The position numbers and the translations under genes are program-made. Below, piece by piece: positions 4,034 to 16,981 of a stretch of DNA of 64,000 bases (positions are counted from its first letter, which is position 1; each line of letters begins with the position of its first letter). The DNA lies in the NCBI GenBank assembly GCA_022844475.1, contig JALHLR010000014.1, positions 1-64,000 of the forward strand, read 5' to 3'. This DNA comes from Hyphomonadaceae bacterium. GTDB lineage: Bacteria; Pseudomonadota; Alphaproteobacteria; Caulobacterales; Hyphomonadaceae. The notes under the pieces are model-generated. The model saw only the letters and a program-made list of their open reading frames with translations, searched no databases and was not told where the DNA came from.

Positions 4034-4255
4034 ATGACCACCCGCATCGAAGCTGTGATCGATCGCCTGCGCGAACTGCCGGAAGCCGAACAAGAGATGC
4101 TGGCGGGTGAGATCGAGGCGCTGCTGATGGAGCCGGCGTCCCTGCTGGATGCAGCGCAATGGCGCGAGGTCGAGGACGAGATCGACACGGATGACGGCGT
4201 ACGCCTGTCACATGCCGATGTGATGGGCCGCATGCGCGCGAGGTTCGGCCGATAA
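4034..4255 (+). CDS. Antitoxin of a ParDE-like module
   Basis: A 73-residue acidic protein. The N-terminal helix (RIEAVIDRLRELPEAEQEML) resembles the addiction-module antitoxin component family, and the C-terminal part (LLDAAQWREVEDEIDTDDG) would be the flexible toxin-binding tail. It is followed after one base by a RelE/ParE toxin, the standard antitoxin-toxin order. ATG 4034 (MTTRIEAV) is preferred over the frame's first start at 3971. Autoregulation through the 90-base upstream gap is expected from the family but no operator palindrome was identified. Confidence 0.7.
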   Translation: MTTRIEAVIDRLRELPEAEQEMLAGEIEALLMEPASLLDAAQWREVEDEIDTDDGVRLSHADVMGRMRARFGR

Positions 4256-4256
4256 C

Positions 4257-4547
4257 ATGCTGACGATGAAAATCTCCTGGCGTCCTCGCGCGGCCGACGA
4301 TTTCGAGGCGCTGATCACCCAGTCCGCGGCAGGCCATGTCGCCCATGCCTCCCGTGACAAGTCGCTGGTCGAAACCCGCATCCAGCAGCTGGTCCGCTTC
4401 GATCAGCTTGGCCGGAAAACCCGCCGCCAGGGCGTCCGCGAACTGCCCATCGAAGGCACGCCCTATGTCGTGGTCAGCAAGCGCTACGAAGGTGAAATCC
4501 TGATTCTGCGGATGTTCTCCAACGGGTCTGCCGTCCAGAGCCGATAG
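4257..4547 (+). CDS. RelE/ParE-family toxin
   Basis: A 96-residue basic protein with the ParE/RelE fold signature: N-terminal WRPRAADDFEAL helix, the central loop LGRKTRRQGVRELPIEGTPY, and the last strand ILRMFSNGS. The GxRELxxxGTPYxVxxxxxxxxIxILR pattern is characteristic of ParE-type gyrase inhibitors, though RelE-type ribosome-dependent nucleases share the fold. The start may be 4257 or the in-frame ATG at 4266 (MKISWRP). It lies immediately downstream of its predicted antitoxin. Confidence 0.8.
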   Translation: MLTMKISWRPRAADDFEALITQSAAGHVAHASRDKSLVETRIQQLVRFDQLGRKTRRQGVRELPIEGTPYVVVSKRYEGEILILRMFSNGSAVQSR

Positions 4548-4584
4548 AAAACCTATTGCGCCGAACAAGCGCTTGTCACTTGCG

Positions 4585-4605
4585 AAAAGCCCGTTTTTGG
4601 CTTTT
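4585..4605 (+). terminator. Hairpin with U-run after the toxin gene
   Basis: AAAAGCC pairs with GGCTTTT across a seven-base loop (CGTTTTT) and is followed by another T. It lies 37 bases after the toxin stop and 11 bases before ilvD, so it most likely ends the toxin-antitoxin transcript. Because it is so close to the ilvD start it could also act as a leader structure for ilvD. Confidence 0.6.
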
Positions 4606-4616
4606 TAGCTAGGCGC

Positions 4617-6485
4617 ATGCCCGCTTACCGTTCACGCACCACTACTTTTGGCCGCAATCAGGCTGGCGCCCGCGCCCTCTGGCGCGCGACCGGCATGAAG
4701 GACGGCGACTTCTCCAAGCCGATCATCGCGGTCGTGAACTCGTTCACGCAGTTCGTGCCCGGTCACGTCCACCTCAAGGACATGGGCCAGCTGGTCGCGC
4801 GAGAGATCGAGGCGGCGGGCGGCGTCGCGAAGGAGTTCAACACCATCGCCGTCGATGACGGCATCGCGATGGGCCATGGCGGCATGCTCTACAGCTTGCC
4901 CAGCCGCGACCTGATCGCGGACTCGGTCGAGTACATGGTCAATGCGCACTGCGCGGACGCGATGGTCTGCATCTCCAATTGCGACAAGATCACGCCCGGC
5001 ATGCTCAACGCAGCGATGCGTCTCAACATTCCCGCCGTGTTCGTCTCGGGCGGCCCGATGGAAGCGGGCAAGGTCGTGTGGAAGGACGCGAAGACGGGCG
5101 TCTCCAAGGAGCACAAGCTAGACCTGATCGACGCGATGATGCAGGCTGGCGATGATCGCATTTCGGATGAGCAGGTTGCAGCCGTCGAAGCCGAAGCCTG
5201 CCCGACATGTGGCTCATGCTCGGGCATGTTCACTGCCAACTCCATGAACTGTCTCACCGAAGCGCTCGGTCTCTCGCTGCCGGGCAATGGCACCGTCGTA
5301 GCGACCCACAAGGACCGCGAGCGCCTGTTCAAGCGCGCGGGCCGCCTGATCGTCGACATTTCGAAACGCCATTACGAGAAGGACGACGCCAGCGTCCTGC
5401 CGCGCAACGTCGCGAGCAAGAAGGCCTTCGAGAACGCCATGGCGCTCGACGTCGCCATGGGCGGCTCCACCAACACCGTCCTGCACGTCCTCGCAGCGGC
5501 GCAGGAAGGCGGCATCGATTTCACGATGGACGATATCGACCGCATTTCGCGCGTCACGCCGTGCGTCTGCAAGGTCGCGCCGGCGGTGTCGAATGTCCAC
5601 ATCGAGGATGTGCACCGCGCCGGCGGCATCATGAGCATCCTCGGCGAACTCGCACGCGGCGGCCTGCTCAACACCGAGACCAGCACTGTGCATTCGCCGA
5701 CCCTCGGCCACGCCATCGCCTACTGGGACATCTGCCAATCGAACGACGGAGAGGTCGAGACCTTTTTCAAGGCCGCGCCCGGCGGCGTCCGCACGACGAT
5801 CGCCTTCAGCCAGGAAAAGCGCTGGCCCGAGCTCGACCGCGATCGCGCCAAGGGCGTCATCCGCTCTACGGAGAACGCCTTCACCAAGGACGGCGGTCTC
5901 GCTGTGCTCTACGGCAACATCGCCGAGAAGGGCTGCATCGTGAAGACGGCCGGCGTCGATGAAGATATCTGGAAGTTCAACGGCATCGCCCGCGTCTTCG
6001 AAAGCCAGGACGAGGCAGCTGCTGCGATCCTCAACAACAAGATCGTCGCCGGCGACGTTGTGGTCATTCGCTATGAAGGGCCCAAGGGCGGGCCAGGCAT
6101 GCAGGAAATGCTCTACCCGACCACCTACCTGAAATCGCGTGGCCTCGGAAAAGTGTGCGCGCTGCTGACGGACGGCCGTTTCTCCGGCGGCACGTCGGGC
6201 CTCTCCATCGGCCACGCCTCGCCTGAAGCCGCTGCTGGCGGCCTGATCGCGCTTGTGCAAGAGGGCGACCCGATCGAGATCGACATCCCCAACCGCTCCA
6301 TCCGCCTCGCTGTTCCGGACGATGTGATCGGCCAGCGCCGCCGGGCAGAAGAAGCCCGCGGCAAGGACGCCTACACACCGCACAACCGCAAACGCGTCGT
6401 TTCCGCCGCGCTGCAGGCCTATGCGGCGCTGGTCACGTCCGCCGACACCGGCGCCGTGCGCGATCTCGGGCAGATCCGGAAGTAG
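4617..6485 (+). CDS. ilvD: Dihydroxy-acid dehydratase
   Basis: Iron-sulphur enzyme that dehydrates 2,3-dihydroxy-isovalerate and 2,3-dihydroxy-3-methylvalerate to the keto acids that precede valine, leucine and isoleucine. At 622 residues it is the usual length for the long IlvD type. Cluster ligands expected from the family are present: Cys122 in [10 protein letters not shown] and Cys195 in [12 protein letters not shown], with Asp81-Asp82 for the metal and the C-terminal [11 protein letters not shown] motif. ATG 4617 fits the conserved N-terminus ([14 protein letters not shown]). No other branched-chain gene is adjacent. A terminator-like hairpin sits just upstream. Confidence 0.97.
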
Positions 6486-12572: not shown

Positions 12573-12647
12573 CCTCTCTGCGCGGAAGCGGAACGAAACG
12601 CAGCTGGACAACGGTTCGTTGTGCTGTGTTCAGGTTGCGCAGGCAGA

Positions 12648-13622
12648 ATGACATTCATGAAAATGCGCTTTGCTCTCGTCGCTCTCCCTCTTGCTTTCGC
12701 GGGCCTCGGCGCCTGCTCGACCTACGGGTACGGCTACGACGACTACGGTTACAGCGATTACGGGTACAACACCGGCTACGGGTACGACGACTACGGCTAT
12801 GGCTACGGCCAGGGCGGTTCGTACGGCGGCGGCGTTTGGCACGACGCCTATTACGACAACCACTACGGCGCCGTGCACGGCGGCTACTGGGATCTGGACG
12901 GATTCTTCTGGTATCAGTCCGTCTTGAACGGACCCTACCTCCGCGATCACAATCGCCATTTCCGTCGCGACTACTGGAACGGCGGCAAGCACTATCGCTA
13001 TGTCGATCGCCGCAACCATGGCGGCCGCGACTGGAACGATCGTGACCGTGACCGCAATACCTACCCGCCGCTCTTCGCAGGCCAGCAGGGCGGCAATCGC
13101 GACTGGAACCAGAATCGCAACAACGACCGTAACGGCGGGCGTGGCGGCAATGACGGCCGCGATCGAAACGATGACCGAGGCCGCAACGACGATCGCGCGC
13201 GCAACGAAGGCGGCAATCGCTACAACCCGCCGCCGCTCTTCAGCGGACAGCAATCGCGTGCGACCCCTCCGCCGCCTCCGCAACTCGACGGTGCGCCGCG
13301 CGGCGGTGACAATGACCGCAGCCGCGATCGCGGCAATGACAACGACCGAAGCCGCGGCGACGGTGGCCGACGAAACGATGATCGCGGCCGCAACGACAAT
13401 CGCGGCCTGGGCGGCAGTCCCCCGCTATTCAGCGGTCAGCAGCAACCGCGCGCCGTGCCAGCGCCCCCGCCTCCGCAGCAGCCGCCACAGGCCCAGCCGC
13501 GCCAGCGTAGCGATGACGACGGTGATCGCCCGCAGCGTGGCCAGCGCAACGACGACGACAGCAATGGCGACCGCGGGCGTGGTCGCGGCAAGGACCGTCG
13601 CGGCGAGCGCGACCGGGACTGA
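12648..13622 (+). CDS. Low-complexity lipoprotein with PPLF[AS]GQQ motifs
   Basis: A 324-residue predicted lipoprotein. The signal peptide ends in a lipobox LGAC with Cys23. Residues 24-60 are almost only Gly, Tyr, Asp and Ser (YGYDDYGYSDYGY pattern). A short ordered part follows at about 65-125 (VWHDAYYDNHYGAVHGGYWD, LDGFFWYQSVLNGPYLRD). The remaining 200 residues are disordered blocks rich in Arg, Asn, Asp and Gly, separated by three copies of PPLF[AS]GQQ at 140-147, 195-202 and 258-265, the last two followed by polyproline. No enzyme signature is seen. ATG 12648 is preferred; 12657 and 12663 are alternatives. It is probably envelope-anchored with the tail in the periplasm or outside. Confidence 0.7.
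   Translation: MTFMKMRFALVALPLAFAGLGACSTYGYGYDDYGYSDYGYNTGYGYDDYGYGYGQGGSYGGGVWHDAYYDNHYGAVHGGYWDLDGFFWYQSVLNGPYLRDHNRHFRRDYWNGGKHYRYVDRRNHGGRDWNDRDRDRNTYPPLFAGQQGGNRDWNQNRNNDRNGGRGGNDGRDRNDDRGRNDDRARNEGGNRYNPPPLFSGQQSRATPPPPPQLDGAPRGGDNDRSRDRGNDNDRSRGDGGRRNDDRGRNDNRGLGGSPPLFSGQQQPRAVPAPPPPQQPPQAQPRQRSDDDGDRPQRGQRNDDDSNGDRGRGRGKDRRGERDRD
13065..13442 (+). repeat. Three in-gene copies of a PPLF[AS]GQQ-coding repeat
   Basis: Copies lie at 13065-13088, 13230-13253 and 13419-13442. Copies two and three are more alike: both encode PPLFSGQQ followed by basic residues and a proline run, and they differ mostly at third codon positions. This indicates an old internal duplication kept under protein-level selection. 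Confidence 0.65.
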
Positions 13623-14060: not shown

Positions 14061-14128
14061 GGCAGCCCTGCTTAGGTGTTTCGGACGATTCAGATATGAA
14101 CTCCGCACTCTATATGGAAGGCGTCGTC

Positions 14129-15325
14129 ATGGCCAAACCATTCTCCCCGCCGCCACGGGCCATCTTCGCCAGCGATCCGGACCGGTCGCGGGGCCGCCTT
14201 CATCACGAGTCGCCGAGCGCCACGCGGACGGATTTCCAGCGCGATCGCGACCGGATCATCCATGCCGACGCCTTCCGCCGGCTGAAGCAGAAGACACAGG
14301 TGTTCGTTGCCCACGAGGGCGATCACTATCGCACACGGCTTACCCATTCGCTGGAAGTTGCCCAGATCGCGCGCACGGCCGCCCGCGTCCTCGGCCTGGA
14401 CGAGGACCTTGCCGAGACCCTTTCGCTCGCCCACGACATCGGCCATCCGCCGTTCGGTCATGCGGGCGAGAGCGCCCTCAATACCGCGATGGCGCCCTAT
14501 GGCGGCTTCGATCACAACGCCCAGGCGCTCCGTGTGCTGACGAAACTCGAACAGCGCTATCCAAAATTCGATGGCCTCAATCTCACATGGGAGACCCTCG
14601 AAGGCGTCATCAAGCACAACGGCCCGCTGGTGACGTCTGAAAGCGGCATCGACAAGCTTCCAACCGCCTTCCGGGACTACGACGCGCTGCAGTCCCTTGG
14701 CCTGCACACATTCGCGGGACCGGAGGCGCAGGTCGCCGCGCTCGCCGACGACATCGCCTACAACAATCACGACGTGCAGGACGGGCTCCGCGCCGGCCTC
14801 TTCACCGTCGAGGAGTTGATGGGCGTGCCGCTCGCCGGTGATGTCTTCCGCGATGTGATGAAGCAATACCCCGACATCGAGCGCGAACGGCTGATCGCGG
14901 AATCCGTGCGCCGCCTGATCGGCGTATGGCTGGGCGATCTTATCGCAGAGTTCCGCCGCCGCGCTGCCGCCGAAGACCCGCGCTCGGTGGAAGAAGTGAG
15001 GGCGCTGTCGCGCCCGCTGGCTGCCTTTTCCGACGATATCGCCGAGCGCCAGAAACCGCTGCGCGCCTTCCTGTTTCAGCGCATGTACCGGCATCACAAG
15101 GTCAACCGCATGATGAGCCAGGCGCGACGCATCGTCAGTGAGCTGTTCACGCTCTTCCTCACCGAGCCCGACACGCTCCCGCCGCCGTGGGGCGACCGCG
15201 CTCGCGCGCCTGGCGCCGACATGACGCGCCGCGCCCGCGTCGTCTGCGACTACATTGCAGGCATGACCGACACCTACGCCATCGACGAGCACCGCCGCCT
15301 GTTCAATCTCGAGCGGTGGGTGTGA
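14129..15325 (+). CDS. dgt: Deoxyguanosinetriphosphate triphosphohydrolase-like HD protein
   Basis: HD-superfamily hydrolase that cleaves dNTPs to deoxynucleoside and tripolyphosphate, 398 residues. The HD motif is complete: His73 in [10 protein letters not shown], His102-Asp103 in [15 protein letters not shown], and the later Asp in [13 protein letters not shown] 14129 is chosen because GGAAGG at 14117-14122 is well spaced; ATGs at 14114 and 14096 are possible. The gene is divergent from erpA. Its 3' end overlaps by 23 bases the end of the small minus-strand ORFs. argS, which follows dgt in many relatives, is not here. Confidence 0.95.
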
Positions 15326-15458
15326 GGCCTCTCGTCCCGAAGATCAGTTCCGCGATCCCCGGCGGCAGGCGCGACGACTGAACGATCTCGTCCCGGCGCG
15401 CCAGCGCATCTGAGAAGGTCGAATAGAGCGGCTCCATCGCCCGGTCTGCCGTGCTCAT
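15303..15458 (-). CDS. Putative 51-residue protein, end of small-ORF cluster
   Basis: A short frame beginning [20 protein letters not shown] and ending in [10 protein letters not shown] plus a basic tail. The codon pattern is strongly GC-rich at third positions, as in neighbouring genes, and the peptide is helix-forming rather than the Arg/Gly/Pro text of shadow frames. Its ATG overlaps the stop of the preceding frame as ATGA at 15455-15458, a usual sign of translational coupling. It could instead be the C-terminal part of one 104-residue frame starting at 15617. The function is unknown. Confidence 0.4.
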
Positions 15459-15617
15459 GCCCATTCGAGCCGCAGTGCGGCGGCCAGCGTGAACCCCGCC
15501 TCGGCGAGCCGTCGGGGTGCCTGCGCGCGTCGCTTCAGGCGCGTCGCGCCAGTTGCCCTTGAGCAGATGACAACAGGCGAGGGGGGCGTGGCGCCCGCGC
15601 AGATGGCCCGGGTTCAT
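15455..15617 (-). pseudogene. Small ORF, apparently frameshifted
   Basis: ATG 15617 has an excellent ribosome-binding site (AAGGAGAT six bases upstream on the minus strand). The first 26 codons (MNPGHLRGRHAPLACCHLLK, then GNWRDA) look coding. After that the original frame turns into Arg/Gly/Thr-rich text, while the +1 frame reads TRLKRRAQAPRRLAEAG and [12 protein letters not shown] with good codon use, and stops at 15455 overlapping the next start. A one-base indel near 15540, real or a sequence error, would explain it. Read without a shift, the frame continues to 15303 as a 104-residue protein. I do not recognise it. Confidence 0.4.
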
Positions 15618-15642
15618 CGTGATCTCCTTCCCGGCAAGTTCC

Positions 15643-15744
15643 CTAGCGCGTGGTGGCGCCGAGGTGCTGACAGGGGCCCGCCGTGACGTCGCCGTGCGGC
15701 GGGCAGTACGGGTCTGTTCCAGCGAACGCCTTGATTTCCTGCAT
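15643..15744 (-). CDS. 33-residue Cys/His microprotein candidate
   Basis: The peptide runs MQEIKAFAGTDPYCPPHGDV then TAGPCQHLGATTR. ATG 15744 has GGAG five bases upstream on the minus strand, and 27 of the 32 codons after the start end in G or C. The C-x2-H and C-x-H spacing could bind a metal. The frame stays open upstream to an ATG at 15801, giving 52 residues, but codon use there is less convincing. It is followed after 25 bases by the start at 15617. No family is recognised. Confidence 0.4.
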   Translation of the reverse strand: MQEIKAFAGTDPYCPPHGDVTAGPCQHLGATTR

Positions 15745-15934
15745 AACCACTCCGGTGGCATGGACGTCCGCGCCATCCTGCCTAAGCCGCTGAGCGCGCA
15801 TGACCTGCCTGGGTCGCTGCTGGCCTCAACGGCCGTGTTTTGACTGGGGCCTTTGCTGTTCCTTAAGCCTCGTCGGTCAGTTTCCAGGGCTTGGCGGGCT
15901 GCACGTCCGCCGGTGGAAGAACCCGGTTCCAGCC

Positions 15935-16981
15935 ATGACACGCTATTCTCGATCGGTGATCCCCGGCCGCCCGGCCGACGCCCCGCAACACGATCCCAAC
16001 CTCGAGCGGCTGGTCTTCGGCGCCAGGCGCGCGCCGCCGGCCGCCGCAAATGACCGCGCCGAACCCGACTTCCTCCCGCCAGTCGATGAGGACGAAGCGG
16101 ACATCCTCTCCAGCCGCGCCAATTCCGACCGCCGCAAGTCCGCCGACCGTCGCGCACAACCCAGTGGCCGACGCGCATCGGAGTATGCGCCTCTTCGTGA
16201 TGGCCCCCGCCCGGCTCGCGCTGATGAAAGCCGGCGTGGCCCGCTACTCCTTGGCGGGGCGCTTCTGATCGTCGCCGTCTTCGGTGTCGTGGTCTGGACC
16301 GCCTACAGCGACGGCCTCGCCACGGACGAGGCCGAGGTTGCGCCCGAACTCAGCACGGCCGGCGCCTTCAAGACGCCGCCGCGCGTGATCGAAGCGGCGC
16401 CCCTCGTCACCGAACCGGTCGAGACGATCGCCGAGTCCGCTGACACGCCGAGCCTCGATGGCGGGACAACCGACTCGCTCGCCGAACAACGGCCCGAACC
16501 GCCAGCACCCGCCGAAGCCGCTGTCGCGCCGCCGCCGTCCAAGGTCATGGCGCCGCCGCCCGCGCCGCTGAAATCGCCAGTTCCAGCGGCCGCCATCGCG
16601 TCCCCTGCAGTGAAGGTGGAGGCGCCGAAAGTCGAACCGCCGAAGCCAGCTCCGGCCAAGCCCGTCGCCGCCGTCCCCGCGCCTGCGCCCGTCGCGCCGA
16701 CGCCCTCAGCCTACCGCCCCGCTTTCACGGCCTATGGCGACCACGTCGTCCAGATCGCCGCCACCTCCAGCACCGCTTCCGCCGGCGCCGAGTTTGCGCG
16801 CATGTCGAAGGCCTGGCCCGACCTGCTTTCGGGCGCGGAAAGGTTCGTCCAGGAGGCAGACGTCAACGGGAAAACCGTCTACCGTCTGCGCGTCGGATCG
16901 TTCGCATCCAAAGCCGACGCCGCTGCCTTCTGCACGGCGTTCAAGGCCAAGGGCGGCAACTGTTATCCGGCCCTGAAATAG
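15935..16981 (+). CDS. SPOR-domain membrane protein
   Basis: A 348-residue bitopic protein: cytoplasmic N-terminus of about 100 residues rich in charged residues, one membrane helix at 103-123 (PLLLGGALLIVAVFGVVVW), a long periplasmic linker rich in Ala, Pro and Lys, and a C-terminal SPOR domain (about 272-348; YGDHVVQIAAT, VYRLRVGSFASKADAAAFC). SPOR domains bind denuded peptidoglycan at the division site, so a role in division or septal wall remodelling is likely. ATG 15935 (MTRYSRSVIPG) is preferred over a start at 15800. nagZ follows 13 bases downstream. Confidence 0.9.
   Translation: MTRYSRSVIPGRPADAPQHDPNLERLVFGARRAPPAAANDRAEPDFLPPVDEDEADILSSRANSDRRKSADRRAQPSGRRASEYAPLRDGPRPARADESRRGPLLLGGALLIVAVFGVVVWTAYSDGLATDEAEVAPELSTAGAFKTPPRVIEAAPLVTEPVETIAESADTPSLDGGTTDSLAEQRPEPPAPAEAAVAPPPSKVMAPPPAPLKSPVPAAAIASPAVKVEAPKVEPPKPAPAKPVAAVPAPAPVAPTPSAYRPAFTAYGDHVVQIAATSSTASAGAEFARMSKAWPDLLSGAERFVQEADVNGKTVYRLRVGSFASKADAAAFCTAFKAKGGNCYPALK

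Follow-up and report, generated by a model that had tools for sequence, protein, structure and literature searches.

The cluster of short reading frames between dgt and a SPOR-domain gene in the window (here, the whole 64,000-nucleotide stretch of a Hyphomonadaceae bacterium genome that we analysed) almost certainly represents the remnants of two decayed neighbouring genes and not new small proteins, judging from sequence comparison with relatives. One remnant is the 3' end of a gene for a TPR-repeat protein and the other is the 3' end of a gene for a single-domain response regulator (REC). The first-pass annotation of this DNA had left two readings side by side, a new microprotein operon or the remains of a larger gene. 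The second proved right, as six same-genus relatives have a long intact gene here, with the amendment that the remains belong to two genes on opposite strands. Going forward, we refer to the window's own genome as G000 and to its closest relative, which likewise has only remnants of the TPR and REC genes, as G005.

The frames that had been described are present: a 52-aa minus-strand ORF (15643-15801) with an internal start at 15744 that gives 33 aa, a minus-strand ATG at 15617 with AAGGAGAT ahead of it, and a 51-aa minus-strand frame (15303-15458). They had been counted as three separate frames; all are indeed open, but the 15617 and 51-aa frames are one open frame (104 aa, 15617-15303), and both are enclosed by a minus-strand ORF at 15303-16178. 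The cluster had also been given an extent of 15303-15801, with no mention of a plus-strand remnant, whereas the two remnants together extend to about 15828-15843 (Table 1).

Table 1. Features in and around the interval between dgt and the SPOR-domain gene, in window positions.
Feature	Position	Strand	Evidence and remarks
dgt	14129..15325	+	Intact neighbouring gene that anchors synteny; TPR remnant convergent with it; ATG at 14129
51-aa frame	15303..15458	-	End of the TPR remnant in its frame, extended through stop loss
15617 frame	15303..15617	-	ATG and the SD-like AAGGAGAT are both made up of TPR codons
Former stop codon of the TPR gene	15330..15332	-	TGA in G005, AGA in the window (alignment, translation)
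TPR-repeat gene, 3' remnant	15333..15650	-	tblastn, profile, frameshift-aware alignment; about 107 last codons, start region missing
52/33-aa Cys/His ORF	15643..15801	-	Antisense to the REC remnant; non-gene
TPR/REC head-to-head junction	15646..15657		11 of 12 bases identical to the G005 junction
REC gene, 3' remnant	15655..15828	+	tblastn, profile; about 58 codons, residues ~68-125 of 125
SPOR-domain gene	15935..16981	+	SPOR domain, E 5e-11; 15935 likely the true start

Homology of the remnants and limits of the locus

In tblastn searches, residues 502-608 of the TPR protein from the intact relative G009 matched window positions 15650-15333 on the minus strand (44%, E 5e-18), and residues 68-125 of the G009 REC protein matched 15655-15828 on the plus strand (43%, E 3e-8). 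Pfam returned no family below E 0.01 for the window fragments (the best match of the 52-aa ORF was DUF3669, E 0.21), and neither the window REC remnant nor that of G005 reached any model, so profiles were made from intact orthologues, seven for TPR and six for REC. Among the 1,604 six-frame pieces of the 64-kb window, the best match of the TPR profile was the TPR remnant (51.8 bits, E 5e-15; next piece 7.2 bits) and the best match of the REC profile was the REC remnant (40.8 bits, E 1e-11; next piece 4.6 bits). Over 500 dinucleotide shuffles of the gap, the maxima were 8.2 bits for TPR and 4.6 bits for REC. In both the window and G005, the remnants match the C-termini of the two proteins, with strands and order as expected, and the homology found by tblastn and by the profiles is to genes that are intact in the same place in relatives. 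No full-length TPR copy was found elsewhere in the window genome; as this genome is 78% complete, the missing part could contain an intact one.

On the far side of the remnants, the SPOR gene likely starts at 15935 and not at the ATG at 15800. With a SPOR query that began at Met 15935, and was thus blind to homology further upstream, the alignment starts at residue 1 in 12 of the 15 matching relatives and at residue 10 or 29 in the other three. DNA similarity between the window and the relatives G002 and G012 picks up again only at about 15923. In G005, the third codon past the 15800 ATG is a stop, and the frame is open again from a later TTG. The extension of the SPOR ORF from 15800 to 15934 first covers the end of the REC remnant, in a different frame, and after that consists of spacer.

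The first-pass annotation had taken this interval as the place usually held by argS, for which our searches gave no support in this group. The argS of the window genome is on contig C26 as a 603-aa open frame. An argS tblastn search (E up to 1e-3) gave no hit in 29 stretches reaching up to 1.5 kb downstream of dgt. The search was equally negative in 19 longer stretches; these include the one of the window, two from G005, and the contig of the relative G010 that carries its TPR gene. On these results, loss of argS from the gap between dgt and the SPOR gene in this group is rejected. Two genes upstream of dgt, a plus-strand ORF of 333 aa (12621-13622) is of low complexity, first rich in Tyr, Gly, and Asp and then in Arg, Asp, and Asn, and it possibly encodes a secreted or surface protein.

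Decay of the remnants and alternative readings

Both genes are truncated at the 5' end, and the TPR remnant is also frameshifted and has lost its stop. By frameshift-aware alignment, the TPR homology in the window leaves its frame near 15516-15499 and returns near 15465-15449, which bears out the frame shift that had been suspected near 15540; the G005 TPR remnant has other frame changes of its own. With the stop codon changed from TGA to AGA, the window frame runs on into dgt. That the minus-strand ORF at 15303-16178 is open counts against decay, and it is open because the frame changes compensate each other and the stop is lost. For the REC remnant, truncation is the sole lesion. The G005 REC remnant, 88 codons long, contains neither a stop nor a frameshift, which also counts against decay; from its sequence, it could be young or still translated.

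The codon-level comparison of G000 with G005 gives no sign of constraint on the remnants. In the TPR remnant, 4 of the 24 differences fall where no frame is assigned; the other 20 are spread over the first, second, and third ancestral codon positions as 9/99, 8/99, and 3/99. The REC remnant (15657-15843) has 5/62, 5/62, and 4/63 at these positions. The remnants thus have no third-position excess, a result that rests on 34 differences in all. The corresponding counts in the intact genes are 6, 2, and 28 of 401 for dgt, 13, 10, and 44 of 357 for nagZ, and 14, 8, and 26 for the SPOR gene. At the third position, the remnants differ from dgt and nagZ combined (Fisher p 6e-7), from these two plus the SPOR gene (p 5e-6), and from the SPOR gene alone (p 0.003). 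Overall divergence is 7.5% in each remnant, compared with 3.0% in dgt, 4.6% in the SPOR gene, and 6.3% in nagZ; being little above nagZ, the remnant figure is less telling and counts against decay. The two dgt genes share 97% DNA identity (36 differences in 1203 bases); of the codons changed over 14123-15325, 25 are synonymous and 7 non-synonymous, counts that take in two codons ahead of the likely start at 14129.

These data bear on the alternative that survives best, a very improbable one, in which the C-terminal part of the TPR protein, or a receiver-like protein in truncated form, is still expressed and keeps a residual role. The G005 REC remnant (residues 38-125) is open and the window TPR fragment lies within an open frame, as this alternative would have it. 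However, a third-position excess is absent between the two genomes, the native starts and the spacer are deleted, and the frame of the window TPR fragment shifts mid-way. For TPR, residues ~502-608 remain, frameshifted, and there is no full-length frame of ~600 aa. The remnant has the same place and orientation as the TPR-repeat gene near dgt in MAGs titled Hyphomonadaceae, Alphaproteobacteria, or bacterium, but unlike that gene, it lacks the N-terminal ~500 residues, is frameshifted, has lost its stop, and does not count as a functional member. Compared with single-domain response regulators (PF00072), what is left in the window is the last ~58 residues with the conserved K-P, and the region of the acidic pocket and the phosphoacceptor Asp is missing. 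We take these to be D16, D17, and D60, which are invariant in six orthologues and are gone or changed here: D16 and D17 are lost in both genomes, and at D60, G005 has E and the window a deletion. Altogether, this points to remnants that are probably not expressed.

By comparison, there is next to no chance that the minus strand encodes a functional operon of new microproteins (the 33/52-aa ORF, the 15617 frame, and the 51-aa frame), the first of the two readings originally offered. It drew on the frames being open, on SD-like sites, and on an ATGA overlap, but two of the frames are pieces of the TPR remnant and the third is antisense to the REC remnant. The region around the 15617 start reads G-K-E-I-T-M where the G009 orthologue reads E-K-A-I-T-I, and the SD-like AAGGAGAT of the window is AAGGCGAT in G005. 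Comparing the frames in close relatives had been proposed as a check, with a long intact homologue named as the finding that would speak against new genes; such a gene was found, and none of the frames is intact in G005. The 52-aa ORF has a stop at codon 28, the 15617 frame is shifted by a 1-bp indel at 15492, and the 51-aa frame is interrupted by a stop. Nor do the peptides carry a sign of purifying selection. Codon changes between the window and G005 are 2 synonymous to 9 non-synonymous in the 52-aa ORF (0 to 7 in its 33-aa part), 1 to 10 in the stretch 15617-15493, and 0 to 7 in the 51-aa frame, where the stop is one of the 7; pooled over the 33-aa, 15617-15493, and 51-aa stretches, 24 of 25 changed codons are non-synonymous. 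Among 29 loci of relatives, only that of G005 matches most of the region; the G009 and G004 loci match about 100 bases (73-74%) at the TPR gene, and the others match short pieces.

The number of micro-ORFs as such is unremarkable. On the minus strand of 15301-15934, two ORFs reach 33 aa or more and have an SD-like site. Of 1000 dinucleotide shuffles, 93 had at least two such ORFs, as did 11 of 200 tiles of equal size taken from both strands of the window. As for the coding-like look of the region, descent from coding sequence would explain such composition. The microprotein operon is rejected on the comparison with G005 together with the TPR and REC homology.

The intact TPR/receiver pair in relatives

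The gene dgt was matched in all 61 genomes searched (the window's own and 60 relatives), and TPR and REC genes follow it in six of the 14 same-genus relatives (G003, G004, G006, G007, G009, and G013). The intact order is dgt, the TPR gene on the minus strand and convergent with dgt, and then the REC gene, divergent from it on the plus strand, with 313-323 bp between the two start codons. The SPOR gene comes next in five of the six; in G006, the end of the contig cuts the REC gene. The TPR-repeat protein has 604-616 residues in these six relatives (608 in G009), and the REC protein is a single-domain response regulator of 125 aa. The TPR gene of G004 lies about 1.1 kb away from dgt. The intervening sequence (L054, ~4050-5170) has a gene for a small hydrophobic protein adjoining dgt, presumably YnfA-like, followed by an opposite-strand frame that to us looks MerR-like. 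In G010, the TPR and receiver genes stand together and divergent on a contig other than that of dgt (L056, C119:20000-26500), and this pair, intact away from dgt, suggests that the two genes travel together.

In the remaining six same-genus relatives (G001, G002, G008, G011, G012, and G014), nothing matched the TPR C-terminus at E 0.001 or the full TPR profile at E 1e-20, and nothing in the stretches beside dgt matched REC. At E 0.001, the TPR C-terminus matches nine of 41 genomes, both remnant genomes counted. At E 1e-20, the full TPR profile matches 14 of 105 family genomes, namely seven of the same genus over the full length and seven from three other genera over part of the length, where the frames have 584-660 aa. 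Nine relatives of the TPR protein were confirmed by pattern scanning of a genome collection. Seven are nearly full-length and come from MAGs titled Hyphomonadaceae (five, UBA7672 among them), Alphaproteobacteria (one), and bacterium (one); the other two are distant and partial (Acidobacteria MAGs). That six same-genus genomes have no TPR gene counts against the decay account; the pair may have been gained once within the genus or lost repeatedly.

Pfam finds TPR repeats in the G009 protein, with no name for its N-terminal region, and PF00072 in both intact regulators tested. An NCBIfam scan of the intact proteins gave TPR and response-regulator matches below the cut-off only, and among the 47 matches listed from solved-structure sequences, only the TPR part was matched. 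A predicted model of the TPR protein, built from 7 sequences, has a mean pLDDT of 63.6; usable confidence lies mainly from about residue 220, where an alpha/beta region is followed by helical repeats. In the low-confidence part of the model, a lone predicted helix at 185-203 might span the membrane. In the window genome, a separate stretch at G000:C40:2865-3230 (L062) shows 30% identity to residues 32-159 of the TPR protein; it lies in a 460-aa open frame, which is probably a different protein with a common N-terminal region.

A literature search on the TPR/receiver gene pair gave no match, which does not in itself establish that the pair is new. Our tentative suggestion, which we hold to be somewhat less probable than its negation, is that the intact genes form a so far undescribed signalling pair, a module that this Hyphomonadaceae clade can do without and that is being lost here. 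Such a pair would consist of a TPR protein with a possible membrane helix, an alpha/beta region, and C-terminal TPR repeats, and of a stand-alone receiver divergent from the TPR gene, with the linkage kept even in G010.

The deletion junction and what the locus means

In G005, the TPR and REC remnants meet head to head, and a few bases belong to both alignments (L060:1653 and 1660). The window and G005 have the TPR-side breakpoint in common along with all but one of the 12 junction bases. Measured against five intact relatives in G009 residue numbering, the missing piece is 1927-1937 bp, made up of ~500 TPR codons, the 313-323 bp spacer, and 37 REC codons. Directly after the 12 junction bases, the window lacks 78 bp that are present in G005, and with this further loss, its REC remnant starts at about residue 68. 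The REC-side breakpoints are thus unequal (residue 38 in G005, ~68 in the window), which counts against a single-deletion account and makes a second loss necessary.

Most likely, one deletion event removed both 5' ends and the spacer; that it was a single event, and its order relative to the other lesions, are our reading of the two remnant sequences. In this reconstruction, dgt and the SPOR gene of the ancestor would have flanked two genes, one for a TPR protein on the minus strand and one for a single-domain response regulator on the plus strand. A single deletion of ~1.93 kb, predating the split of the window lineage and G005, would have taken the first ~500 TPR codons, the spacer with any promoters in it, and the first ~37 REC codons, leaving both 3' ends head to head. 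Later, small indels would have shifted the TPR frame, and the window would have lost the TPR stop and another 78 bp of the REC remnant. The micro-ORFs are pieces of the TPR remnant or an antisense reading of the REC remnant.

A dgt tree of 17 rows places G000 and G005 together with 100/100 support and groups them with the intact genomes G004, G006, and G009. The fork that joins the remnant pair to these intact genomes lies outside the strongly supported set (85/96), which counts against this history. In an earlier dgt tree without G009, G000/G005 were sister to nine genomes, five with the pair intact, three with it absent, and one with it elsewhere. That the window is misassembled or missequenced, with intact genes present in the organism, is hardly conceivable: the genome is 78% complete in 50 contigs, but G005, a separate assembly 7.5% diverged in the remnants, has the same head-to-head remnants and frameshifts of its own, and a junction shared by two different assemblies makes a single-genome assembly error unlikely.

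Comparable loci have been described in other bacteria. One report on Rickettsia describes pseudogenes broken by indels and stops that appear as several adjacent short ORFs, once annotated as different genes (PMC2374718), and another gives ~2,300 of 6,895 candidate pseudogenes in 64 genomes as overlapping annotated hypothetical ORFs (PMC522871). As in such bacterial pseudogene fragments, indels and stops at our locus yield neighbouring short ORFs that resemble small genes and are identified through intact homologues in relatives; unlike them, the locus has the 3' ends of two divergent genes joined by a deletion, on both strands. It is a further instance of pseudogenes read as short ORFs.

One false microprotein candidate is thereby struck off. 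Decayed genes can mimic small genes with ribosome-binding sites and coupled starts, where the motifs are left-over codons. The locus also provides a clean example of an apparent single deletion that disables two divergent genes, with a close relative that retains more of one of them, and it points to an unnamed TPR/receiver gene pair in the intact relatives.
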